This document shows, piece by piece, positions 4,128 to 22,189 of a DNA stretch of 35,443 bases. The notes beneath the pieces were generated by a model. That model was not told the origin of the DNA. It was given only the letters and a program-made list of their open reading frames with translations, and did not search any database. This DNA comes from a virus. The position numbers and the translations under genes were made by a program. Location of the stretch: the IMG/VR virus record IMGVR_UViG_3300036398_001557, positions 1-35,443 of that record; one strand, 5' to 3'. Each line of letters starts with the position of its first letter. Position 1 is the stretch's first letter.

Positions 4128-4538
4128 TCACTTGGACTTGGTTACACGAATTTCGAACTCGGTGTGCGAGTTCAAACCGGGTGGAACAACACCCGGGTTC
4201 TCTGACAGGAAGGTCGCCATGTTCGTCTGTGCGATGCGCTTCTCCAGCAGATCGACGACTTGGTGCTCAAGAATAAATTTCTTGAACGAGTCCCAGTCCT
4301 GCGTGTTGTAGCGCACCTTAGTCGAGAGGGAAACCGTCCCGTAAGATGTGTTGACAGACTTGAGCCCGAGGGCTTTCATCTTGTCTTTGATGGCAAAGCG
4401 CACCTCGTCTTGCTGAGCCTTGAGCTGCTCCACCGCAGTGTCGTACTCTTTGGTCAGCGCGTCGATGCGCGATTTGATCTTGGTGTGGATTTTCACGAGG
4501 CGGTCGATGGGGACCACCTCATCTTCAGTGTCGGTCAT
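4128..4538 (-). CDS. Hypothetical protein with N-terminal coiled coil (136 aa)
   Basis: ATG at 4538 with the cassette AGGAGAAAGCACATG. Residues 10-60 are predicted helical and coiled (RIDALTKEYDTAVEQLKAQQ); the second half contains VNTSYGTVSLSTKVRY and helical stretches. The shape recalls Gp157- or Gam-like proteins of recombination modules, but I cannot assign it. It lies 7 nt upstream of the putative SSB and directly downstream of a predicted promoter and operator (4558-4573), so it probably heads a transcription unit with the SSB-like and primase genes. Confidence 0.6.
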   Translation of the reverse strand: MTDTEDEVVPIDRLVKIHTKIKSRIDALTKEYDTAVEQLKAQQDEVRFAIKDKMKALGLKSVNTSYGTVSLSTKVRYNTQDWDSFKKFILEHQVVDLLEKRIAQTNMATFLSENPGVVPPGLNSHTEFEIRVTKSK

Positions 4539-4557
4539 GTGCTTTCTCCTGTTGTTT

Positions 4558-4610: not shown

Positions 4611-6170
4611 TCATGATCTGATCTCCGACTCAAACATGGCCGTGAGCAGGTCGTTGTCATCGACGCGGGCCGCCAGCGCCTTGAACATCTTGCGCTCGAT
4701 GGGGGAGCTCTGGATGTGCACCACTGTGACCTTGTCGCTGGTCTGGCCCTTGCGATCAGCGCGTGCGATGCACTGGATGTACTGCTCAACAGACATCAAC
4801 GGGCCGTAGAAAACCACCGTGTCGGCTGCGGTAAGGGTAATCCCGTGTGCCGTTGCTTGCGGCTGCATGATAAGCACCCTGGGGTTGGGCTGCGTCTGGA
4901 ACCTGTGGATGATGTCGCCGCGCTTGGTCGCGCTCACACTGCCGTGGATGACCTCGGCAACAACGCCCTTCTTGGTCAGGTATGTGTGGATGGTGTCGAT
5001 GCTGGAGCGGAACATGGCGAAGATGATGACCTTGCGCTCGGTCTCCTCCAGCACCTCCTCGATGACGCCAAGGCGTGGGGCAGCATCGAACTCGACCACT
5101 TCTTTCTCGTCCGTGTAGGCCGCACCGCAACTGATCTGTAGGAGTTTGCTTACACCAGCAGCGGCGTTGACCGCTGTGATGGTCTCCCCTGCGGTGTGCA
5201 CCAGCATCTGCTCCTTGAGCAAGTTGTAGTACTTGTTCTGCTGTGGGGTCAGCGGAGCCTCGCGTGTGAGCGTCATCACAGGCGGCAGGTCCAAGCACTG
5301 CTCTTTGGTGAAGCGGATGGCTGGCTGCAGCGCGTTGTACACATCGTCCTTGGCCGTGGGCTTGGGGGCCCACTTGAACATCGTGAGCTTGTACATGACC
5401 TGATCGCGCCAGCCCGTGAAGAACTGCGGCACTCCCGTCGGGTTGACCAGCTTGGCCAGACCGTACGCATCAGCGGGCGACTGCGATGCTGGCGTGCCCG
5501 TCATCATCCACAGGTACGAGTCCGGGCGCACAATCGACTTGAGCGTCTTCCACCGCTTGGTGGTCATCGTCTTGTATGCGTTGGCCTCATCGACGATGAT
5601 GAGGTCGAACCTGCCGTCTGCGTTGATCTCTTCTGCGATCAGGTTGAGCCCGTCGTAGTTACAGATCACAAACTCATAGTCCGACTGGATCATCTCGATG
5701 CGCTTGGCAGCTTGCGCGTGGTGCGCGACGATGGCAGAGCGATGAATGATTGAGTTGTTCAGGTCGCCCATCCAGGCGCTGTGCATGATCGACAGCGGGC
5801 ACAAGATAAGCGCACGCCGCACAAGCCCACGCTGCATCAGGTAGTCAGCCGCCCACAGCGCCGACAGTGTCTTGCCCGTGCCCGGGTCGTTGAACACGAA
5901 GGCTTTGCGGTGCACTGTCAGGAACGACGCAGTGTCGATCTGGTGCGCCATAGGCTTGTAGCGGCCTGGCCAGTTGTAGCGCCGTGTGATGGGCGAAGGC
6001 ACATCCTTGACTCCCAGGTTGCGCAGCACCCGCACCTCATCGAGCCCCCAGTACACGGCGATCTTGTAGGTATCACCGTCTTGGTCAAGCACCTTGTGCT
6101 TGGGGATGATCTGGTACTTGTCTGGGTTACGCGTCCTGAAGACGACTGCCTTGTCCTCAACTATCTCCAT
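4611..6170 (-). CDS. SNF2-type superfamily 2 DNA helicase/ATPase (519 aa)
   Basis: ATG at 6170, preceded by GGAGAAAGTAA. Motifs appear in order: Q-like region (MAHQIDTASF), Walker A FNDPGTGKT (K100), Walker B DLIIVDEAN (194-197, DEAN in place of DEAH), motif III MTGTPASQ (224-230), motif IV/V (VIIFAMFRSS, GITLTAADTVVF) and motif VI QCIARADRKGQ (arginine fingers R470/R473). This matches compact phage SNF2-like ATPases, which translocate on duplex DNA and take part in replication or recombination. The exact role here is unknown. A 72-nt promoter-bearing gap follows it. Confidence 0.9.
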   Translation of the reverse strand: MEIVEDKAVVFRTRNPDKYQIIPKHKVLDQDGDTYKIAVYWGLDEVRVLRNLGVKDVPSPITRRYNWPGRYKPMAHQIDTASFLTVHRKAFVFNDPGTGKTLSALWAADYLMQRGLVRRALILCPLSIMHSAWMGDLNNSIIHRSAIVAHHAQAAKRIEMIQSDYEFVICNYDGLNLIAEEINADGRFDLIIVDEANAYKTMTTKRWKTLKSIVRPDSYLWMMTGTPASQSPADAYGLAKLVNPTGVPQFFTGWRDQVMYKLTMFKWAPKPTAKDDVYNALQPAIRFTKEQCLDLPPVMTLTREAPLTPQQNKYYNLLKEQMLVHTAGETITAVNAAAGVSKLLQISCGAAYTDEKEVVEFDAAPRLGVIEEVLEETERKVIIFAMFRSSIDTIHTYLTKKGVVAEVIHGSVSATKRGDIIHRFQTQPNPRVLIMQPQATAHGITLTAADTVVFYGPLMSVEQYIQCIARADRKGQTSDKVTVVHIQSSPIERKMFKALAARVDDNDLLTAMFESEIRS

Positions 6171-6186
6171 TTACTTTCTCCTGTGC

Positions 6187-6880: not shown

Positions 6881-7549
6881 TCAACCTCTCTTGCGGTTGT
6901 GTTCACACGTTGTCACCGGACACCAACCGCATAACGGTGTCGGCTTGGGGTTCCACACCCCGGTCTCATGCGCCTGCTCGATGCGAGCCACGCGCTCTCT
7001 GTAGTCCCACCAGTACTCCTCGGCTTCGCCCACCATGAAGCTGGCCTTGGCGATGTCTTCCTTGACCACGAACAGCAGCGCCCCAGAGACGCGCCGGATG
7101 TGGGGGAAGTGGGCGAACACCATCAGCGCCATGAGCTTGAGCTGCTCGCGGTCTGGGTACTTGTTGTTGCCCGACTTGTAGTCCACCACCTTGGCCGTGA
7201 GGTTCTCGTCGTCGATGATGAGCAGGTCGGCAATGCCGCGCACCCACACCTCCTTGTCCATGAACCCGCAAGGCTTCAAGTCCTTGGTCACGCCCATCTG
7301 GTGCTCGCACAGCTTCCTGCCCGGCTTGGCCTTGAGCGCATCGAGTGTTCCCTGTATGAAAGAAAACTGAGGCGGCAGTGGTGTGCCCTCCTTGATGTAC
7401 AACTCAGCCGCCGTGTGCAGCTCCTTGCCGTAGATCGTTGCGTCGGTGTCCTTGAACGGATAGTTCTTGAGCACCTTGACCTCGTGGTATCTGCGAGGGC
7501 AGCCCTCGTAGTCCTTGAGGGAGCTGTGCGACCAAGTGACTGTCTTCAT
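6881..7549 (-). CDS. Cas4/RecB-like PD-(D/E)XK exonuclease with predicted Fe-S cluster (222 aa)
   Basis: The ATG at 7549 overlaps the metalloprotease stop (TGATG). The N-terminal YEGCPRRYHEVK resembles the RecB-family helix and provides C17. GKELH gives the conserved H. The catalytic core is GIADLLIID (D) then KVVDYKSGN (D-x-K). The C-terminus, PLCGWCPVTTC, supplies C207, C210 and C215. One N-terminal plus three C-terminal Cys is the classic four-Cys [4Fe-4S] pattern of Cas4 and AddB nucleases. It probably resects DNA ends for phage recombination or replication, working with the neighbouring helicase and SSB-like protein. No cas genes are nearby. Confidence 0.88.
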   Translation of the reverse strand: MKTVTWSHSSLKDYEGCPRRYHEVKVLKNYPFKDTDATIYGKELHTAAELYIKEGTPLPPQFSFIQGTLDALKAKPGRKLCEHQMGVTKDLKPCGFMDKEVWVRGIADLLIIDDENLTAKVVDYKSGNNKYPDREQLKLMALMVFAHFPHIRRVSGALLFVVKEDIAKASFMVGEAEEYWWDYRERVARIEQAHETGVWNPKPTPLCGWCPVTTCEHNRKRG

Positions 7550-7857
7550 CAAAACCTCGCCGTACGTATCGCTCGGGCCAGTCGCAGAGAGAACTCTTCG
7601 ACGAACCGCTCGCGGTTGTTGAGCTCATGCTCGCCCATGCTGTGCAGGATGGCGTGGGTCAGCTCATGCCAGAACGTCTCCTCCAGTGCCGACAGTCTGA
7701 ACGGCACACCGTGGTGCGTGCGCCGGGCCAGCTCAATCTTTTGCGTGTCGTACGTCACGCGCCCGATCTCACTCTTCCTGCGCATCGACTCAACCACATC
7801 GACGCTGTACCACTTGCTGCCCACCTGTACTTTCTTGGGCAATACCAGTTGCTTCAT
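7549..7857 (-). CDS. Small HExxH zinc metalloprotease (102 aa)
   Basis: ATG at 7857 preceded by GGAGAAAGAAAG. The motif ETFWHELTHAILH places zinc ligands at H64 and H68 and the catalytic E65; E87 or E88 in RFVEEFS may be the third ligand. At 102 residues it resembles minimal SprT- or ImmA/IrrE-like domains. Such proteins can cleave repressors or process DNA-protein adducts; the substrate here is unknown. It sits between the Cas4-like nuclease and DNA polymerase genes, in a coupled series of overlapping stops and starts. Confidence 0.8.
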   Translation of the reverse strand: MKQLVLPKKVQVGSKWYSVDVVESMRRKSEIGRVTYDTQKIELARRTHHGVPFRLSALEETFWHELTHAILHSMGEHELNNRERFVEEFSLRLARAIRTARF

Positions 7858-8045
7858 CTTTCTTTCTCCTTTTGATGCATGTGTCGTAATGTCTGCAATG
7901 TGAGCCTCGCTTCCACGAGCATTGCCATCGCCTGTTCCTGCGCTTTCTCATAGTCACGCTCCAGGCACGCGTGATGAACACCTTTGGCCAAACGCTCAAC
8001 TTCCATGAGCGATGCTGCGTAGTCAATCAAAATCGAATCGTTCAT
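7854..8045 (-). CDS. Hypothetical helical protein (63 aa)
   Basis: ATG at 8045 overlaps the polymerase stop; its own stop overlaps the metalloprotease start (ATGA). The product is almost wholly helical (EKAQEQAMAMLVEARLTLQTL). The last residues, HQKEKER, are encoded by the Shine-Dalgarno cassette of the next gene. No family is recognised. Confidence 0.65.
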   Translation of the reverse strand: MNDSILIDYAASLMEVERLAKGVHHACLERDYEKAQEQAMAMLVEARLTLQTLRHMHQKEKER

Positions 8046-10012
8046 TTCTTTGCAAGTCCATATCTGCGGTGTGCGCCACCCTCAACGGCCAGGGGAATCC
8101 CCGGCATGTACTTAGGCTCTACGGTCATCTGCGCCAAGACCCAAGTCTTAGCGTCAGCCACTTCCTCGTCGGGCACCACGACGATCTGTTCATCATGCAC
8201 TGTGCCTGCCACAAAGTACTTCTTCGAAGTACGTAGCATCCCGTCTGTCATCACGATCCGCGCCAACGCTTGGGTCACGTTGTTGGTGATCTTGCCAGCA
8301 TACAGCTTGGTCTCGTCCTCGCCATAGACCCAGTTCTTCTGCTTGGTCTCCTTATCGGTGACTTGGCGCAGGTCAGGGTACAGCAAAGACATGCCGTTTG
8401 GCAGCACGATCTCGTTCTTGCGGAACGTCAGACATTTATACACCACCTCTTCGCCACCGGCAAGGGACTTAGTTAGTAAGCGGTCACACATGTCCCAGAA
8501 GCTCACCACGGGGTGGGCCGTGGCCCGGTAGATGTCGATGATCTTCTTGGCCGCCACGCAGTGCACCAGCAGCTCCCGCTCGGTGCAGGTGTGGGGAATC
8601 TCTTGGAGCTTCTTGACGTTGTCCTCCCAGCCGATGAACCGCTCGATGTACTCGGCTGTCACATCCAGCTTCTTGGCAAACGCCTTGTCATAGCGCACGG
8701 GCGGTGCGCCCAGGAAGCCCACCAGAAGCTGCGAGGCGAAGCTCGCCCACCCCAGGCCATACCCACACCCCAGCAACGCGCTCTTGGCCGACTGGCGCAG
8801 GTCTGGGTGGCTGTCCTTGGTCATGCCGGGGATGCCGAACATCTGCGCACCGAACTGGGCGTATGCATCCTGGCCCGAGCGGAAGATGTTCAACAACTCC
8901 TCGTAGTCCGACAGCCACGCCAGCACCCGGGGCTCGATCTGCGAAAGGTCACCCACCAGAAGCTGGTATCCCTCCGGGGCCATGATGGCCTTGCGCAGGA
9001 AGCTGCCGCGTTTGAGGTTCTGCATGTTGATGGCCGAGCCCTTGGCCGCCGTCCACCGGCCCGACTTGGCACCGTAGTAGGACAGGGGCACGGGCAGTGC
9101 GCCGCGCTGGGAGATGTCCAGAAACCGCTGCGCACGGGTGCGCTCGGTGGTGGACTTGACCTTGAGCCGGGCCTCGCACAGGGTGGCCACATCCTCGTTC
9201 TCACCGTTGAGCAGTGCTTGGAACAGGGCGTCGTTCTTGGCCAGGGCCAGCGTCAGTTGGCCCGTGGTCTTGCTGACCTTCCTTGGTGGGGCTACGCCCA
9301 AGCCCCACAGCAGCGCAGCAAACTTAGGGTTCGATGCAAGCTCCGACTCCTCCACCCCCAGCTTGGCCAGCAGCCCCTCACGGTGCTTGCCCTCCTCAGT
9401 AAGCGCCTCGATCAGCATCGTCCTGTCAAGCTGCAACACCGGGCGGGTGTACATCTTGAGGGTCATGTCGATGAGGCGAAGCTCCGACTTGGGGTAGTTT
9501 TCAACCAGCCGCTCGAAAATCCGTTCGCAGAGATATACGTCGTGCTTGCAGTAATCGGCAAGCTCAGATTCCATATCTTTATCAATCTCTGCGAGTCCGT
9601 CCGTCGAATGTACGGCTCGCCCTTTTTCGGGAAGACCAAAATCGCTGGCGAGTTTTGCGAGGGAATTGCCAACCTCCACGCCGCGTAGAGCACGCGCCAT
9701 TGATAGGGTGTCGAAGATGAACGCGGGCCGTATGCCGTAGCGCCACTCAAGGATCGAAACATCGAACTGTGCGTTATGGGCGAGGGCGGCTGTCTTGCTC
9801 CAGTCGTAAGTCCCCAAGATTCTAGGAAGCTCATCTCCTCGATACCACTGTATAGCGGTGTCTCCTCCATACTCATGGATGCAAGCGCCAAAGGCCTTGA
9901 ACCGCTTGTCACGGATGTACTCCTCTGTGGTTAGTTTCGATAGTGTGTAGTCGCGCTTGTCCCAGCGCGTTTCAAAGTCAATGCTGACGATGCGTTGATA
10001 AGGTGCACTCAA
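8042..10012 (-). CDS. Family A DNA polymerase with 3'-5' exonuclease (656 aa)
   Basis: Exonuclease motifs: SIDFETR (D12/E14), HNAQFDVS (N80/D84) and YCKHD (Y154/D158). Polymerase motifs: A, VGDLSQIEPR (D355/E360); B, the O-helix RQSAKSALLGCGYG (R406, K410, Y418); C, VHDEQ (H606-D607). All catalytic residues are present, so a proofreading replicative enzyme is expected; length is close to T7-type polymerases, and no 5'-nuclease domain is visible. The start is TTG at 10012: the codon before it in frame is TAA, the first internal Met is at residue 105, and AAAGGAG lies 8 nt upstream. TTG overlaps the stop of the upstream gene. Confidence 0.96.
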   Translation of the reverse strand: MSAPYQRIVSIDFETRWDKRDYTLSKLTTEEYIRDKRFKAFGACIHEYGGDTAIQWYRGDELPRILGTYDWSKTAALAHNAQFDVSILEWRYGIRPAFIFDTLSMARALRGVEVGNSLAKLASDFGLPEKGRAVHSTDGLAEIDKDMESELADYCKHDVYLCERIFERLVENYPKSELRLIDMTLKMYTRPVLQLDRTMLIEALTEEGKHREGLLAKLGVEESELASNPKFAALLWGLGVAPPRKVSKTTGQLTLALAKNDALFQALLNGENEDVATLCEARLKVKSTTERTRAQRFLDISQRGALPVPLSYYGAKSGRWTAAKGSAINMQNLKRGSFLRKAIMAPEGYQLLVGDLSQIEPRVLAWLSDYEELLNIFRSGQDAYAQFGAQMFGIPGMTKDSHPDLRQSAKSALLGCGYGLGWASFASQLLVGFLGAPPVRYDKAFAKKLDVTAEYIERFIGWEDNVKKLQEIPHTCTERELLVHCVAAKKIIDIYRATAHPVVSFWDMCDRLLTKSLAGGEEVVYKCLTFRKNEIVLPNGMSLLYPDLRQVTDKETKQKNWVYGEDETKLYAGKITNNVTQALARIVMTDGMLRTSKKYFVAGTVHDEQIVVVPDEEVADAKTWVLAQMTVEPKYMPGIPLAVEGGAHRRYGLAKK

Positions 10013-13566: not shown

Positions 13567-13749
13567 TTACTCCTCCTCTCCAAAGACCGCTTTGATGCCG
13601 ATCTCGCTGTTGGCAGCGGCTTCGTCCTGTAGGTGGTCGATGAGATGCAAGATACCCGTCAAGTCCTCCGCCACAGTGGGCGGGCTGACACTGATGACCT
13701 GCAAGAGGGTAAGTTTTTGGCTGCGAAGCAGCGCCCAGTCGATTTTCAT
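13567..13749 (-). CDS. Hypothetical protein (60 aa), first gene of a unit
   Basis: ATG at 13749 with cassette AGGAGAAAGCGAATG. Helical and acidic at the end (GIKAVFGEEE). It follows a 62-nt gap holding an operator-like palindrome and a good sigma70-type promoter, so it probably heads the 13.7-10.6 kb run of small genes. Confidence 0.65.
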   Translation of the reverse strand: MKIDWALLRSQKLTLLQVISVSPPTVAEDLTGILHLIDHLQDEAAANSEIGIKAVFGEEE

Positions 13750-13792
13750 TCGCTTTCTCCTTTTTGTGAATCGTGCCTGACAACCCGAAGGT

Positions 13793-14935: not shown

Positions 14936-16297
14936 TTACTCCTCAGTGTTGAACAGCTCGTCTTGAGCAGGGGTGTGGTCAGGGTGGTACTTCTCGCCGT
15001 CTACGAGCACATAGTCGGTGTTGTCTGAGTAGTAGTTGTCAGAGCCTTCGCACTGCCACGCATCGTCCTTGTGTAACCAGCCGTGGTCTACAGTCTCGAC
15101 GCAGTTGTCGATGTGGTGGTACTTGTCGTCGTACTCGCAGTGGATGATGTCCGAGTCCTCGATGTGATACCACTCATCGTCATCATCACACCGCACAGCG
15201 TTGTTAGTGTGCGCGTAGTCGCCGTCGGCCAGCTCAACGATGTCGTTGTCACCGATATAGTGGCTGTCGTACCAATCACCATCGGCCTCAACCGCGTCAT
15301 CGTTGGGCACATAGTAATCCTCACCCCTGCGTCCGGTGACATACGTGTAGTCGTGATCGACACAGTTCTCACACACCATGTGATCGCCGTGGTAACCGAC
15401 ACTGCGCAGGTCGTCCTCGTCGCATCGCTCGCCGCAGTCCGGACAGGTGTGGCGACCCTGATGGTTGGGCGTGCCGTCAGTGTTACGCATCTCGTACTCG
15501 CCATCGTCGTCGATGTACAGCTCCTGCTTGTGGGTAAGCGTAGCGCGTGTCGTGTCGCCGTCGAGGTAGGGTGCGAGGAACTCGCCGTGTGCGATGGGTA
15601 TGTATGCAAGCTGCGCCCCGTCATGCCAGTAGTTCCACCTGACATACCCCCGCTCTTTGAGCCACGCCTCAAGCTGCTGGTCAGTGTGCGAGTAGACGCT
15701 ACCCTCCTGCTTGCCGAACGACCTGACCCAGTAGTTGTGACCATCATGTGTGTTGAGCAGCGCACGGCCAACGATGTCGCCACTGGGTGCGATGCGTATC
15801 GCCATGTGCCAGCCATACTGCGGGTCATACGCGGCGTAGGGATGCCTGCGTTCGCCATCGGAGCAGCGCACGAAGTCGCGTGCTGTCCAGCACATACATG
15901 AGTGAGGGCCGTTGTTGACAGCGTGCACCATGTCCTGCGTGGTGTTGATTATTTTGTATGTGTCAGTGCCGCCAGTGTAGAGGGCAACCGCATCGCGGAT
16001 GACATGGTCAGGCAGGTCGAAGTGCCGCGTCAAGTACTTGCCAACAGAAGTCATCAACTGCCGGTTGGCCTCGCCTGCACGCTCGTCACGGGTATACGCA
16101 AGGCGCAGCGCGTCAGTCTGCGCCACATGGGGCCACTCAAGCAGCAACTGCTGCCAGTCACGCGGGCGATGGTCATCGACAAGCAGGCGCTTGACCGATG
16201 GGTGCAGGGTGTACTTGTCTGTCTCCCGCTCAAACCACTCACGATGGCAGCGCACGATGTTCATGGCCACGAGGAATGTACTGTCATACCATTTCAT
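14936..16297 (-). CDS. Large acidic protein with zinc knuckle and Asp/Tyr/His-rich repeats (453 aa)
   Basis: ATG at 16297 with AGGAGAAGCAA. Residues 1-270 form a globular part rich in Trp and His (e.g. HSCMCWTARDFVRC). Around 285-315 there is CPDCGERCDEDD and CENC, a probable zinc site. From there to the end run about seven degenerate repeats of 15-22 residues of the type DDDDEWYHIEDSD, CEYDDKYHHIDNC, DHGWLHKDDAW and GSDNYYSDNTDYV, giving a very negative surface. Similar Asp/Tyr/His repeats occur in phage proteins of unknown role. DNA mimicry or metal binding are possibilities only. The peptidase gene follows after 5 nt. Confidence 0.75.
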   Translation of the reverse strand: MKWYDSTFLVAMNIVRCHREWFERETDKYTLHPSVKRLLVDDHRPRDWQQLLLEWPHVAQTDALRLAYTRDERAGEANRQLMTSVGKYLTRHFDLPDHVIRDAVALYTGGTDTYKIINTTQDMVHAVNNGPHSCMCWTARDFVRCSDGERRHPYAAYDPQYGWHMAIRIAPSGDIVGRALLNTHDGHNYWVRSFGKQEGSVYSHTDQQLEAWLKERGYVRWNYWHDGAQLAYIPIAHGEFLAPYLDGDTTRATLTHKQELYIDDDGEYEMRNTDGTPNHQGRHTCPDCGERCDEDDLRSVGYHGDHMVCENCVDHDYTYVTGRRGEDYYVPNDDAVEADGDWYDSHYIGDNDIVELADGDYAHTNNAVRCDDDDEWYHIEDSDIIHCEYDDKYHHIDNCVETVDHGWLHKDDAWQCEGSDNYYSDNTDYVLVDGEKYHPDHTPAQDELFNTEE

Positions 16298-16318
16298 TTG
16301 CTTCTCCTAGTTTCTAGT

Positions 16319-16595: not shown

Positions 16596-16965
16596 TGATA
16601 AGCTCCTCCGGTACGTCCACGGTGTCGCCCAGCTTGCTTACCACATAGCAGCGCATCGCTGCGATCAGGGGCGTGGGGCCGTACTCTTCGTAGTAGGCTG
16701 TTGCGTTGAAGTCTTTGTACCGGCATTCAACTGAGCCAATCCAGTAGGGATCTTCTTCGTCAAGGTAGCTCGTCAGGCTGATACCCTCTTGCTCAATGAT
16801 CGGGCCACCTTGCTCCCAATCGGTGGATGGTTCCCAAAAATCATAGTGTCTGTCGAACGGCTGACCGATCAGGCGCACCATGCCGCCATCGATGCTCACC
16901 GTCAGACTCTCACACCTCGCTACTGCCCAATCAAGGGCTGCGCCTGTCAGTTCACTTGTATTCAT
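16588..16965 (-). CDS. DUF2591-like phage protein (125 aa)
   Basis: ATG at 16965 with the exact cassette AGGAGAAAGCAAATG. MNTSELTGAALDWAVARCE at the start and GPTPLIAAMRCYVVSKLGD, then VPEELI, at the end match the DUF2591 family of phages and prophages, whose function is unknown. It starts 14 nt inside the end of the previous gene. Confidence 0.85.
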   Translation of the reverse strand: MNTSELTGAALDWAVARCESLTVSIDGGMVRLIGQPFDRHYDFWEPSTDWEQGGPIIEQEGISLTSYLDEEDPYWIGSVECRYKDFNATAYYEEYGPTPLIAAMRCYVVSKLGDTVDVPEELINV

Positions 16966-17110
16966 TTGCTTTCTCCTTGAAGTGTTGCTCCGCTTTGCGG
17001 TCTTGCTCGTCGTCGTACTCATCCGACGCTATGTCGGCCAGCTTGTCCTCGGCCTCGTCCCATGTGTAGCCTGCATCGAGCAGGCGTTGGCGCAGTTGGC
17101 TCTCACTCAT
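16952..17110 (-). CDS. Hypothetical helical protein (52 aa)
   Basis: ATG at 17110 (MSESQLRQRLLDAGYTW...), weak GGTGGGG upstream. Acidic helix DEAEDKLADIASDEYDDEQD. The tail FKEKANEYK is encoded by the Shine-Dalgarno cassette of the next gene. Function unknown. Confidence 0.6.
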   Translation of the reverse strand: MSESQLRQRLLDAGYTWDEAEDKLADIASDEYDDEQDRKAEQHFKEKANEYK

Positions 17111-17297
17111 GGCCCCACCCCTGCCCTGGTGCATAACGCTCGAACAGGTGTCCGAACGCCGTGAGTAGTCGTTGTTTGTTCTCACTGTCGGCCACGAAGT
17201 AAGCATCGGCAATGCGCGCGGCAAAGCCGCCGCCGTAGTACACCATGTTGTGGGCTGCCTTGATCAGCTCGCTCTCGCTCATGTCATTTGCTTTCAT
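17103..17297 (-). CDS. Hypothetical protein (64 aa)
   Basis: ATG at 17297 with the exact cassette AGGAGAAAGCAAATG; an in-frame ATG at 17282 is less well placed. MSESELIKAAHNMVYYGGGF then ADAYFVADSENKQRLLTAF suggests a helical domain. Its stop overlaps the next start by 8 nt. Its MSESE- opening resembles the MSESQ- of the next gene, possibly an old duplication. Confidence 0.65.
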   Translation of the reverse strand: MKANDMSESELIKAAHNMVYYGGGFAARIADAYFVADSENKQRLLTAFGHLFERYAPGQGWGHE

Positions 17298-17538
17298 TTG
17301 CTTTCTCCTTGGTTGCTGCGCTGGCACAGGCCAGCTTTGTCAGAAGTCGATTCTCCAGCGCGAACAGGCGGTCGAGCCTGTCTTGCACTTCACCGATCTT
17401 GCGGTTGCGAAACGGCTCATCGTGCGAGGCGTAGCTCCTGTCCACATACTCACGCACCGGCAAGCGATGATTGCGGTGTTCTCGCAATGCCCACAGCACG
17501 GCTTGCGCCGTATCATCCGTCAAATCAATACTTATCAT
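17284..17538 (-). CDS. Hypothetical helical protein (84 aa)
   Basis: ATG at 17538 with the exact cassette. Mostly helical (TAQAVLWALREHRNHR, EVQDRLDRLFALENRLL), possibly a coiled-coil dimer. The tail KEKANESK is produced by reading through the next gene's ribosome-binding cassette. No family recognised. Confidence 0.65.
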   Translation of the reverse strand: MISIDLTDDTAQAVLWALREHRNHRLPVREYVDRSYASHDEPFRNRKIGEVQDRLDRLFALENRLLTKLACASAATKEKANESK

Positions 17539-17698
17539 TTGCTTTCTCCTTGAAGTGGGCCTTGAACCATGCGCTGTCTACCGCCTCGCGTGCTTGCTTG
17601 AGCGCCATCGGGTCGTTGTTTCTCAGGTGCTCAACGATGGGCCACGAGTTGAGCAGCACTTGCAGTGCGTCGTAAAGTTTCTTCTCGGTGTCAGTCAT
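17525..17698 (-). CDS. Hypothetical helical protein (57 aa)
   Basis: A frame from ATG at 17698 with the exact cassette, ending at 17525 inside the next gene. MTDTEKKLYDALQVLLNSWP then MALKQAREAVDSAWFKAHF are amphipathic helices; the tail is KEKANDKY, again encoded by the cassette. It fills an otherwise empty slot with the same spacing as its neighbours. Confidence 0.65.
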   Translation of the reverse strand: MTDTEKKLYDALQVLLNSWPIVEHLRNNDPMALKQAREAVDSAWFKAHFKEKANDKY

Positions 17699-17877
17699 TT
17701 GCTTTCTCCTTTCATTGCTTCGTCTACCATCTTGTGCGCCAAGTTCAGCGCCATGCCTGCGGCCAGGAACGCGATCACTCGCTCCTGCCCTGTGAACCGC
17801 TCGCAGTACTCCATCAGTGCCTCCATGTCCTTGGGCGTTGCGAACATCTTGTTCAGTCCTAGCGGGTTCTCTTTCAT
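17695..17877 (-). CDS. Small protein with hydrophobic helix (60 aa)
   Basis: ATG at 17877 with the exact cassette; its stop overlaps the next ATG. RVIAFLAAGMALNLAHKMV is a hydrophobic or amphipathic helix, perhaps membrane-associated. The tail KGESK is encoded by the downstream cassette. Function unknown. Confidence 0.65.
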   Translation of the reverse strand: MKENPLGLNKMFATPKDMEALMEYCERFTGQERVIAFLAAGMALNLAHKMVDEAMKGESK

Positions 17878-18077
17878 TTGCTTTCTCCTATCAGTTGGTT
17901 GCGAATCTCGTTGAGTTGTGCCAGCACACTCTCGCGTGTGCCTTTGAACCCCATGTCTTTGAGCAGGGCGTATGCACTACGCCCTCGGCGGTGCATCCCT
18001 TTCATCTCCAGCATGAGCATCGAGCGCAGCGTAAGCAGCCGCGCCCCTTCGATCTGGTTGCCTGTGAGTACTGTCAT
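17874..18077 (-). CDS. Hypothetical helical protein (67 aa)
   Basis: ATG at 18077 with AAGGAGCAGTGAC. GARLLTLRSMLMLEMKGMHR then SAYALLKDMGFKGTRESVLA suggest a small helical DNA-binding-like fold, but nothing definite. The tail IGESK comes from the next gene's cassette. Confidence 0.65.
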   Translation of the reverse strand: MTVLTGNQIEGARLLTLRSMLMLEMKGMHRRGRSAYALLKDMGFKGTRESVLAQLNEIRNQLIGESK

Positions 18078-18242: not shown

Positions 18243-18464
18243 TCATCCTCTCCAGTAGTTGTTGAGCAGGTGCACTGCGTCTGCGAGTGTCGCTGCGGCT
18301 TTGTCGATCTGGTGGTGCACAACCTCCAGCTTGTGCTGCGCTGTGGTATTGCCCGCCTCGTGAGCGGCAACGCCTTCGCTGTGCACGATAGCCTTGGCTC
18401 TGTCTGCCTTGGCCCATGCGGTGATGAGCGCCTGTGTGAGCGTCTCGTAGTCTTCTGGTGTCAT
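18243..18464 (-). CDS. Hypothetical helical protein (73 aa)
   Basis: ATG at 18464 with cassette variant AGGAGAAAGTAAATG; it overlaps the stop of the upstream 50-aa gene. Helical throughout (LTQALITAWAKADRAKAIV, HHQIDKAAATLADAVHLL). Function unknown. Confidence 0.65.
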   Translation of the reverse strand: MTPEDYETLTQALITAWAKADRAKAIVHSEGVAAHEAGNTTAQHKLEVVHHQIDKAAATLADAVHLLNNYWRG

Positions 18465-18613
18465 TTACTTTCTCCTTGTTTAGCGGCTGTCCATGCCGCG
18501 TGCCATACCTGCCACATCCTTCCCTTGTAGGGGAAGTCTCTCGGGGTGAAGTCAGGGAACGTGGCTTGACACCACACCCTGTATGCGTTGCGCATCTGCG
18601 TCAGTTCTTTCAT
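18461..18613 (-). CDS. Small Trp-rich protein (50 aa)
   Basis: From ATG at 18613 with AGGAAAACGCAAATG, a two-difference cassette. MKELTQMRNAYRVWCQATFP then RMWQVWHAAWTAAKQGESK is Trp-rich and basic. It ends in the cassette-derived GESK tail. It closes a 146-nt gap between two supported genes and overlaps the next start (ATGA). Confidence 0.65.
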   Translation of the reverse strand: MKELTQMRNAYRVWCQATFPDFTPRDFPYKGRMWQVWHAAWTAAKQGESK

Positions 18614-18882
18614 TTGCGTTTTCCTTTCGGGAAGGCCACGCCAAGCAGCTCGTACATCACGGCGTACCCTTCGCTGTCTGCTGCGCCGAAGTTGCTGTAC
18701 CTGTCCTGCGCAAGAGCGATGACCTGCGCCGCTTCACCCTCGGTAGTACAGCTATTGAGCGCGCTCTCGGCCCACTTGTTCAGCGCGTGTGCTGCCACAT
18801 CGCGCCCCTCAATGTCATACAAGGCCCACTGGTCTGCAGTCAGGGCGACCCTGAACGTGCGTGTCACAGTTACGTTCTCCAT
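18610..18882 (-). CDS. Hypothetical protein (90 aa)
   Basis: ATG at 18882 with GGGAGAACGCAAATG, a two-difference cassette. N-terminal strand VTVTRTFRVALTADQW, then helices with ALNKWAESALNSC and AQVIALAQDRYSNF. No family recognised. Confidence 0.65.
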   Translation of the reverse strand: MENVTVTRTFRVALTADQWALYDIEGRDVAAHALNKWAESALNSCTTEGEAAQVIALAQDRYSNFGAADSEGYAVMYELLGVAFPKGKRK

Positions 18883-18895
18883 TTGCGTTCTCCCT

Positions 18896-19027
18896 TCATA
18901 CGTGTTTGCTGAGCCACGCCACGCACTCATCGTGGCTGCCCATGAATCGCGGCGCGATGCGGTTGTATGCCATCACAGGGCGCACGATGTAGCAGTCCTG
19001 TGCATAACTCCAAATCACTTCATACAT
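18896..19027 (-). CDS. Small protein (43 aa)
   Basis: ATG at 19027 with AGGAGAAAGTAAATG. MYEVIWSYAQDCYIVRPVMA suggests a short beta sheet, followed by SHDECVAWLSKHV. It is the first gene after the composite element 19050-19103. Confidence 0.6.
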   Translation of the reverse strand: MYEVIWSYAQDCYIVRPVMAYNRIAPRFMGSHDECVAWLSKHV

Positions 19028-19049
19028 TTACTTTCTCCTTTTTACAAGT

Positions 19050-21116: not shown

Positions 21117-21165
21117 AAAAAAGCCCCGCACTGGCGGGGCATCAGACCGGCTCGTTCCCGAACCG
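21117..21165 (-). promoter_or_regulatory. Leader with GNRA hairpin and terminator (possible attenuator)
   Basis: Leftward RNA: CGGTTCG-GGAA-CGAGCCG (21165-21148), a 7-bp stem with a GNRA-class tetraloop, then 7 nt, then GCCCCGC-CAGT-GCGGGGC (21140-21123) followed by TTTTTT (21122-21117). It lies between a predicted promoter and the first leftward gene (21101). A terminator at this place implies attenuation or antitermination. Confidence 0.65.
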
Positions 21166-21173
21166 ATGACTCT

Positions 21174-21179
21174 ATTGTA
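21174..21179 (-). promoter_or_regulatory. Predicted leftward promoter, extended -10
   Basis: On the minus strand TGTTACAAT gives an extended -10 (TG, one nt, TACAAT). No good -35 is found 17 nt upstream. Transcription would start near 21167 and run straight into the leader hairpins. Confidence 0.4.
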
Positions 21180-21184
21180 ACACA

Positions 21185-21235
21185 GGGGTACTAGGCAGCC
21201 TCTGCTGCAGCGGCCTTTTGGCCTACTCTGACCCC
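21185..21235. other. Potential three-way-junction structure
   Basis: GGGGT (21185-21189) pairs with ACCCC (21231-21235) and encloses two hairpins: GCAGC/GCTGC (21195-21208, 4-nt loop) and GGCC/GGCC (21212-21223, TTTT loop). It would fold on either strand. It lies just upstream of the predicted leftward promoter and is not explained by a gene. Confidence 0.4.
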
Positions 21236-21341
21236 ACCATACCCCCACCCCCGCTGTTGGCTGCGACGATGGCGACGTGACGGGAACACTGTTTTGCAAC
21301 CACACTCCACATTTCTGTAATACTTAACACCTACCCCCCAC

Positions 21342-21357
21342 AATTTTTATAAAAATT
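21342..21357. promoter_or_regulatory. Perfect AT palindrome
   Basis: AATTTTTATAAAAATT is a perfect 16-bp palindrome in the divergent spacer, 13 bp from the operator-like site. It could be a melting or binding site; no promoter is asserted. Confidence 0.4.
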
Positions 21358-21369
21358 TAACACCATCTT

Positions 21370-21385
21370 TGTCTAATGTTAGACA
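21370..21385. promoter_or_regulatory. Operator-like palindrome, copy 3
   Basis: TGTCTAATGTTAGACA: 7-bp perfect arms around a 2-bp centre. Its reverse complement matches TGTCCAACGCTTGACA (4558, 13793) at 12 of 16 positions, including both TGTC and GACA ends. It lies between the antisense RNA and the first leftward genes. Confidence 0.55.
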
Positions 21386-21397
21386 TGTACAGGCAAG

Positions 21398-21522
21398 AAA
21401 AAGCCCCACCGGCCGTAAGCCAGTGGGGCAAAGTGGGTTTGGAACCCCCACAGGAGAAAGCAAACGGGCAACTGCTTGCACGTACGGCCAAAGGCCGTTT
21501 TGCGGTGCTTGCCTATTTACTC
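21398..21522 (-). ncRNA. Predicted C4/CI-like antisense RNA
   Basis: Leftward RNA in order: hairpin A (21513-21467; nested pairs GGCAA/TTGCC, GCAC/GTGC, ACGGCC/GGCCGT), an unpaired stretch with TTTGCTTTCTCCT (21464-21452), hairpin B (21451-21433; GTGGG/CCCAC), then a terminator GCCCCAC/GTGGGGC (21429-21403) with TTTTT. The unpaired 13-mer is the exact complement of the repeated ribosome-binding cassette. The opposite strand reads GFGTPTGESKRAT, as in Ash-like frames that overlap C4/CI immunity RNAs of P1 and P4 relatives. The call rests on recognition and base pairing; the 5' end is approximate. Confidence 0.65.
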
Positions 21523-21538
21523 AACGCCAGTGTATAGT
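21509..21538 (+). promoter_or_regulatory. Predicted rightward promoter for the structural operon
   Basis: TTGCCT (21509-21514), 18 nt, then TATAGT (21533-21538), giving a start near 21545, about 36 nt before the small terminase ATG. It overlaps the leftward promoter for the antisense RNA. Confidence 0.5.
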
Positions 21539-21557
21539 ATGCGCCATCGGTAAGCAA
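21529..21557 (-). promoter_or_regulatory. Predicted leftward promoter for the antisense RNA
   Basis: Minus strand TTGCTT (21557-21552), 17 nt, then TACACT (21534-21529), giving a start near 21522. It is weak by consensus and shares -10 bases with the opposing rightward promoter, so the two would compete. Confidence 0.4.
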
Positions 21558-21580
21558 GGGCTCACGCCTCAAACCCGCAT

Positions 21581-22189
21581 ATGCTTGATCACCTGTTGGA
21601 TTTTGAGCCAGACATCGTCCCAAACGACGATGCGGGCCGCGCCGTTGAAAAACACACCACAGCGCAAATAATCGACGCCCAGGTATCGACCGCAGACTTT
21701 CTCGCATCCTTGGGCTCCCCCGACACGGACACCGCCATATCGGAGCTTGAGCAAAAAGCCGCCCGGGTCGCATTCAACGCCGTTGTCACACAGGAAGACG
21801 GTGCGCACCACAAACTCGCCCAGATCGAAACCCCCGCAGCCGTGCGCCATTTGGTGGGCATGTTGACCGCATACGACTGGGAGTTTGTGCACCAAGCCAA
21901 GCAGTTGCGCGGGTACGCCGTGGCCAAGCTGTTGGAAGAGTGTGAGAACCCCAACTCAAATATACGGCTCAAGGCGCTGGGGTTGCTGGGCAAAGTGACG
22001 GAAGTTGGTTTGTTCACCGACAAGATTGAGGTCAAGAAGACAGACCTCACGGAAGAAGAAATCGACAAGAAGCTCAAGGAGAAGCTGGCGGTGTTCATGA
22101 ACATCACAGACGCCACGCCCTCTGATATTGAAGATGTGACTCCTGTTGGGGAAAACCCTAATGACGACCAACCCACCGCTGACGCCTGA
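21581..22189 (+). CDS. Small terminase subunit-like protein (202 aa)
   Basis: ATG at 21581; no strong Shine-Dalgarno is visible, so expression may be low or controlled through the structured leader. The product is acidic and helical. The segment QLRGYAVAKLLEECENPNSN, then IRLKALGLLGKVTEVGLFTD and EEEIDKKLKEKL, is typical of proteins encoded directly before large terminases in environmental podoviruses. It should recognise phage DNA and start packaging. The HTH expected in such proteins is not obvious. It overlaps the large subunit gene by 29 nt. Confidence 0.7.
   Translation: MLDHLLDFEPDIVPNDDAGRAVEKHTTAQIIDAQVSTADFLASLGSPDTDTAISELEQKAARVAFNAVVTQEDGAHHKLAQIETPAAVRHLVGMLTAYDWEFVHQAKQLRGYAVAKLLEECENPNSNIRLKALGLLGKVTEVGLFTDKIEVKKTDLTEEEIDKKLKEKLAVFMNITDATPSDIEDVTPVGENPNDDQPTADA

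Follow-up and report, generated by a model that had tools for sequence, protein, structure and literature searches.

An uncultured phage genome encodes, at the junction of its divergent gene blocks, a small RNA whose conserved core is complementary to the ribosome-binding sites of about a dozen early genes of the same genome, and in related phages the RNA and these start sites co-vary. The window analysed here covers 35,443 nucleotides and is a fragment of the virus record IMGVR_UViG_3300036398_001557. Conservation of the RNA gene, its structure, its complementarity to start sites, the strand specificity and the co-variation were all shown by computation. We put at roughly two in three the probability that the gene has a promoter and a terminator of its own and that its product acts in trans as an antisense RNA, blocking translation of a set of early leftward genes while sparing the rightward ones. 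The phages concerned form a large family of uncultured, aquatic and probably virulent viruses with this previously undescribed small RNA.

Small RNA gene at the divergent junction

Replication-type genes of the window are read leftward, among them those of DNA polymerase A (8042-10012), an exonuclease (6881-7552) and an SNF2-like helicase (4611-6170), and the terminase gene with a large downstream gene is read rightward from 21581. The small RNA gene is located where these two blocks diverge, on the leftward strand, from 21522 to 21398, and is about 125 nt long, with the 5' end placed from the candidate promoter and the gene itself recognised by fold z-score and conservation. An earlier note, made from the sequence of the window, had proposed a leftward RNA gene with a terminator on the same strand as the leftward operon, and the fold, the terminator and the conservation in relatives bear this out. 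Folding of the minus strand gave, from 5' to 3', hairpin H1 (21458-21522), single-stranded CUCCU, the small hairpin H2 (21433-21451) and an intrinsic terminator (21398-21429) with a 12-bp stem and five T, at -63.9 kcal/mol (z-score of -3.84 against shuffled sequence). The target-pairing core CGUUUGCUUUCUCCU (21452-21466, minus strand) is conserved in relatives. This segment had been described as unpaired, which is correct for the (U)CUCCU at the 3' end of the core but not for UUUGCUU, which is the 3' arm of H1 and is paired. This arm carries GUUUGCUU, and the 5' arm of H1 is variable, with many G.U pairs; the 5' arm of H2 lengthens the complementarity upstream of the Shine-Dalgarno sequence in many genomes.

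A candidate -10 hexamer TACACT (21529-21534, minus strand) is found as TA(C/T)ACT in 183 of 185 relatives, and a candidate -35 hexamer TTGCTT (21552-21557, minus strand) precedes it by 17 nt, a distance conserved in the family, the TTG hexamer being 17 nt upstream in 176 and 18 nt in 9 of the 185. A generic sigma-70 promoter scan of the window did not list the small RNA promoter, and the candidate therefore rests on conservation. The conserved promoter spacing and the terminator point to an independent transcription unit, as expected of a trans-acting base-pairing sRNA. It should be added that in many relatives the -10 region (21529-21538 in the window) forms an almost perfect palindrome (AGTGTACACT, GAGTATATACTC), which in the window is only partial; this palindrome may be an operator.

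Most close relatives have an RNA of about 92 nt, without the 33-nt insert that the window has in its H1 loop. This hairpin-forming insert is shared by the window and one contig of 12391 bases (L087) and absent from the other close relatives, and other clades have different inserts at the same loop position. The terminator stem has been swapped as a whole, yet retained, in L002 and L087, and the T-run reaches at least six in most relatives. T-runs of 7, as in most relatives, would suit Hfq, and the small RNA may depend on Hfq or on an RNase.

Conservation across the phage family

Relatives were found as terminase relatives in viral contigs, and a uniform script was used to count the small RNA in the 191 contigs whose terminase was at least 60% identical and whose upstream sequence was long enough. 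In 185 of the 191 it was present at the same place, about 0.6 kb upstream of the large terminase gene. Three of the remaining six (L246, L248 and L257) have a divergent form, recognised by eye, and the other three (L036, L040 and L093) have lost the small RNA, which is also missing from L046, a contig with less upstream sequence. The lineage of L093, L040, L036 and L046 has retained a promoter remnant.

The stems have diverged in relatives but the pairing has been maintained. When H1 was counted with the named structure, its pairs being taken from the sequences' own folds, 81% of cells were paired, against 35-62% when the structure was slid, and the covariation was 0.252 against 0.185 for shuffled data, with none of 500 shuffles as high. 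Its 3' arm (UUGCUU) is nearly fixed while its 5' arm has drifted and forms many G.U pairs, a pattern to be expected if the 3' arm had a second partner and the stem had to open easily. A nucleotide search against cultured phages gave no match; terminase relatives from cultured phages reach only about 45-53% identity, and no such RNA was found in them. The search of bacterial genomes for a host returned only two distant MAG contigs.

Complementarity to translation starts

The 13-mer AGGAGAAAGCAAA had been reported as exact at five gene starts and nearly so at nine more, and the motif count agrees. Exact copies stand at the leftward starts 16965, 17297, 17538, 17698 and 17877, and copies with one or two mismatches at 4538, 6170, 6444, 7857, 13749, 18464, 18613, 18882 and 19027; with up to three mismatches, 32 matches were counted against 8.7 expected, a number that no shuffle reached. 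On the plus strand the 13-mer occurs once, at 21452, within the small RNA. The complementarity is thus real, but 13 nt is too short a description of it: the core is a 15-mer and complements AGGAGAAAGCAAAUG, from the Shine-Dalgarno sequence through the start codon, including one G.U pair to the AUG. The cassette at the start sites reads AGGAGAAAGCAAATG; the gene at 16297 has a two-A form, AGGAGAAGCAAATG.

Compared with shuffled RNAs, 11 of 38 leftward starts paired better with the small RNA than with 99% of the shuffles (p < 0.01), and none of 18 rightward starts did. Cofolding of the whole RNA with each start, with the cost of opening H1 included, gave net energies of -9.9 to -18.0 kcal/mol for 12 leftward starts, while none of ten rightward starts fell below -7.6 kcal/mol; typically, nucleotides 57-71 of the sRNA paired with positions -12 to +2 of the mRNA.

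All predicted targets lie on the minus strand. The strongest duplex is that of the SNF2-like helicase start (CACAGGAGAAAGTAAATG, 6168-6182), at -38.4 in the shuffled-RNA test and -15.1 net in cofolding. Exact cassettes, found by motif and supported by both tests, stand at the starts of genes of 125 aa (phrog_4389; 16963-16977), 64 aa (17295-17309), 84 aa (17536-17550), 57 aa (17696-17710) and 60 aa (17875-17889), and the same three lines of evidence apply to a 73-aa gene (18462-18476), in which one C to U change is kept as a G.U pair. The shuffled-RNA test and cofolding also predict the starts of genes of 136 aa (phrog_13900; 4536-4550), 60 aa (13747-13761), 453 aa (the two-A form; 16295-16308), 90 aa (18880-18894) and 43 aa (19025-19039); the family of the 453-aa gene co-varies with the RNA. 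The polymerase/helicase block had been named among the targets, and this holds for the helicase start but not for the DNA polymerase start (10012), which reached -6.6 in cofolding and is not a predicted target. Where relatives are complete or nearly so, most copies of the cassette are on the same strand as the RNA.

Co-variation of the RNA and its predicted targets

RNA nucleotides next to the core and into H2 vary by genome and match the sequence just upstream of the Shine-Dalgarno sequence, for example UUGGGUU with AACCCAAGGAG and UCGGUUG with CAACCGAGGAG. For this reason, the pairing energies of start sites with their own RNA and with that of a relative were compared in 80 genomes, arranged as 24 pairs on non-overlapping branches of the terminase tree, with the pairing region chosen after inspection of the data. 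At leftward starts the own RNA was better than the swapped one in 21 of the 24 independent pairs (p of 0.0001 or less), by a mean of -0.65 to -0.86 kcal/mol, and 20 alternative pairings of the genomes gave a median p of 0.0006-0.002. Both controls were null, with 14 of 24 pairs for rightward starts and 12-13 of 24 for internal leftward GGAG/AGGA sites. Smaller versions of the comparison agree (16 of 19 and 17 of 22 pairs). This is the co-variation looked for in a trans-acting base-pairing sRNA. The suggestion of a complementary cassette common to many leftward starts is likewise supported.

Narrower versions gave graded results. Among orthologous gene families 19 of 25 went in the same direction, 7 of them at p < 0.05, uncorrected for phylogeny or for 25 tests; the first leftward gene by itself was borderline (20 of 33 non-zero pairs, p of 0.05), and the genomes added later provided only five independent pairs, of mixed sign. 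Only a part of the family has many exact cassettes, and four genomes with a variant core (L065, L131, L129 and L151) have no matching exact cassette. Genomes with UUGCUUCUCC often retain the three-A cassette, and in a simple three-A versus two-A motif test UU or UUU in the core was only loosely tracked by AA or AAA in the cassette. In L093, which has lost the RNA, the start sites show no erosion: their pairing with the RNAs of sister genomes is as good as that of the starts in the sisters themselves.

Alternative explanations

The small RNA could act mainly on host mRNAs as a generic anti-Shine-Dalgarno sRNA, in the manner of the CU-rich sRNAs of alphaproteobacteria, and a shared ribosome-binding consensus would then account for part of its fit to phage starts. 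Genomes that lack exact phage cassettes do indeed also conserve the core CUUCUCCU, and there is a weak similarity to the suhB/mmgR family (RF00519). Nevertheless, the co-variation involves only leftward phage starts and not the rightward ones, which also have a Shine-Dalgarno sequence, and in the window the matches extend over 15 bp through the AUG, so that we regard this explanation as unlikely. The direction of control might also be reversed, with the cassette starts acting as a sponge for the RNA or the pairing stabilising or activating the mRNAs. Pairing by itself is silent on direction, and in the clade of the window there are many sites per genome; however, pairing at -12 to +2 covers exactly the ribosome-binding site, which usually blocks initiation, and this makes the reversed direction less probable still.

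Two further readings start from the locus itself. The cassette at 21452 could genuinely serve, in the rightward direction, as the ribosome-binding site of a small gene on the plus strand, the Ash-like frame of the earlier note, with incidental complementarity to the leftward starts. The plus strand does read AGGAGAA(A)GCAAATG in many relatives, but the start codon is missing from the window group and several clades (AACGGG, AAAGGG, AACGCC), so the frame is not a conserved gene; this frame (P0001) has no Pfam match, and the hairpins, the T-run and the spacing of the promoter are all in keeping with the minus strand, which leaves a very small chance for such a gene. The proposal that the RNA belongs to the C4/CI type and confers immunity in a temperate phage draws on the two hairpins around complementary segments, the terminator, the position on the same strand as the operon and a similar function through pairing near the Shine-Dalgarno sequence. 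It is contradicted already on three points and would have to accommodate many targets, not one, and we consider it barely credible. The Rfam C4 model (RF01695) was unmatched even at E < 10 in 21300-21640, and at gathering score it was found neither in the window nor in 20 relatives; the first leftward gene and its neighbours match no icd/ant or Ash-like family. A search for tyrosine integrase (PF00589) found none in 17 near-full-size relatives of 54-68 kb, and lysogenic immunity is therefore unlikely. The RNA may still serve in superinfection control, as had also been suggested, but nothing points to this.

Proposed mechanism and comparison with known systems

In the reading that we prefer, of an antisense repressor of early leftward genes, the small RNA would be transcribed next to the divergent early/late junction and act in trans on transcripts from the leftward operon. 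Its unpaired CUCCU may serve as a toehold on the Shine-Dalgarno sequence; the target would displace the weak, G.U-rich 5' arm of H1, and pairing would proceed via UUUGCUU to the AUG and, in many genomes, also enter H2, upstream of the Shine-Dalgarno sequence. The ribosome would thereby be kept off a set of early genes, with 12 strong candidates in the window, the helicase included. Rightward structural genes would be spared, and genes without the cassette, such as the polymerase gene, a gene of 241-246 aa and the rightward genes, would escape. We infer that the RNA is expressed and that repression is the outcome of pairing; its accumulation would lower a block of early proteins, most likely as infection proceeds.

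Since the RNA matches the start sites of a dozen or so early genes, one RNA could stop many of them at once. On a wider scale, and with a little less than even odds, we tentatively suggest that in a widespread family of virulent phages one small RNA may be a master repressor of translation that follows a code at the start sites, in which early genes opt in by carrying the cassette, and that this may amount to an RNA-based early-to-late switch co-evolving with its regulon. The closest known system in logic is RegA of phage T4, a single repressor of about 30 T4 mRNAs that acts at their translation initiation regions, on sites overlapping or just 5' of the AUG (PMC3014915). RegA is, however, a protein with loose A/U-rich sites, whereas the repressor proposed here would be an RNA that uses a base-pairing code and, if the proposal is right, an RNA counterpart of RegA.

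In its chemistry the small RNA resembles trans-acting phage antisense RNAs, for which a 2025 review lists one or few phage targets, or host targets (PMC12197685). C4 of P1/P7 likewise comes from a phage and pairs around a ribosome-binding site of the same genome (PMC12197685). Its target is the single ant/icd and its role is immunity, in contrast to a dozen early starts in phages without tyrosine integrase here. C4 has two segments complementary to the flanks of its target Shine-Dalgarno sequence; the small RNA has an uninterrupted core of 15 nt, which in many genomes reaches on into H2. VpdS of phage VP882, which changes phage and host mRNA levels (PMC12197685), and PreS of lambda are also trans-acting phage sRNAs; they belong to temperate phages and are Hfq-dependent, and no start-site cassette shared by targets is reported for them in PMC12197685. 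The best Rfam score, 29.1 bits, was to suhB/mmgR, which has a similar anti-Shine-Dalgarno-like UUGC..CUCC segment followed by a terminator, but this is a bacterial chromosomal family, the score is below its gathering score of 41, and none of 20 relatives reached that threshold.

To our knowledge, the phage antisense RNAs described so far act on mRNAs of the host or have one or few targets. In this large family of uncultured phages a single RNA seems to be matched to a dozen start sites in the early operon of the same phage and to co-evolve with them. The RNA family is absent from Rfam, and our literature search did not bring up any account of this RNA, a limited indication that it is new. If the proposal is correct, these phages offer a natural case of multi-gene translational control through a shared cassette, suited to simple reporter swaps.

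Other features of the region

Downstream of the sRNA terminator, TACAAT (21174-21179, minus strand) is a candidate separate -10 hexamer of the leftward operon, and relatives have a similar (C/T)A(C/T)AATAGA. Conserved non-coding blocks (21231-21384) separate the terminator from the early operon and are present in nearly all relatives printed; they comprise the inverted repeat GTCTAATGTTAGAC (21371-21384), GAACACTGTTTTGCAACC (near 21284-21301) and CCCCACCATACCCCCACC (near 21231-21250), and may be regulatory or an origin. A second intrinsic terminator (21123-21140) stands in the leader of the first leftward gene, directly before its Shine-Dalgarno sequence, and is attenuator-like; GC-rich hairpins with T-runs occur at this leader in some relatives too. 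One relative (L044) has a cluster of five tRNA genes (1310-1918) near the sRNA locus. The leftward operons of relatives in the L050 and L011 families, as judged by eye, contain genes resembling amidoligase (599 aa), class II glutamine amidotransferase (366 aa), MoxR-type AAA ATPase (375 aa) and VWA metallopeptidase (399 aa), which recur there and make up an unusual modification gene set.
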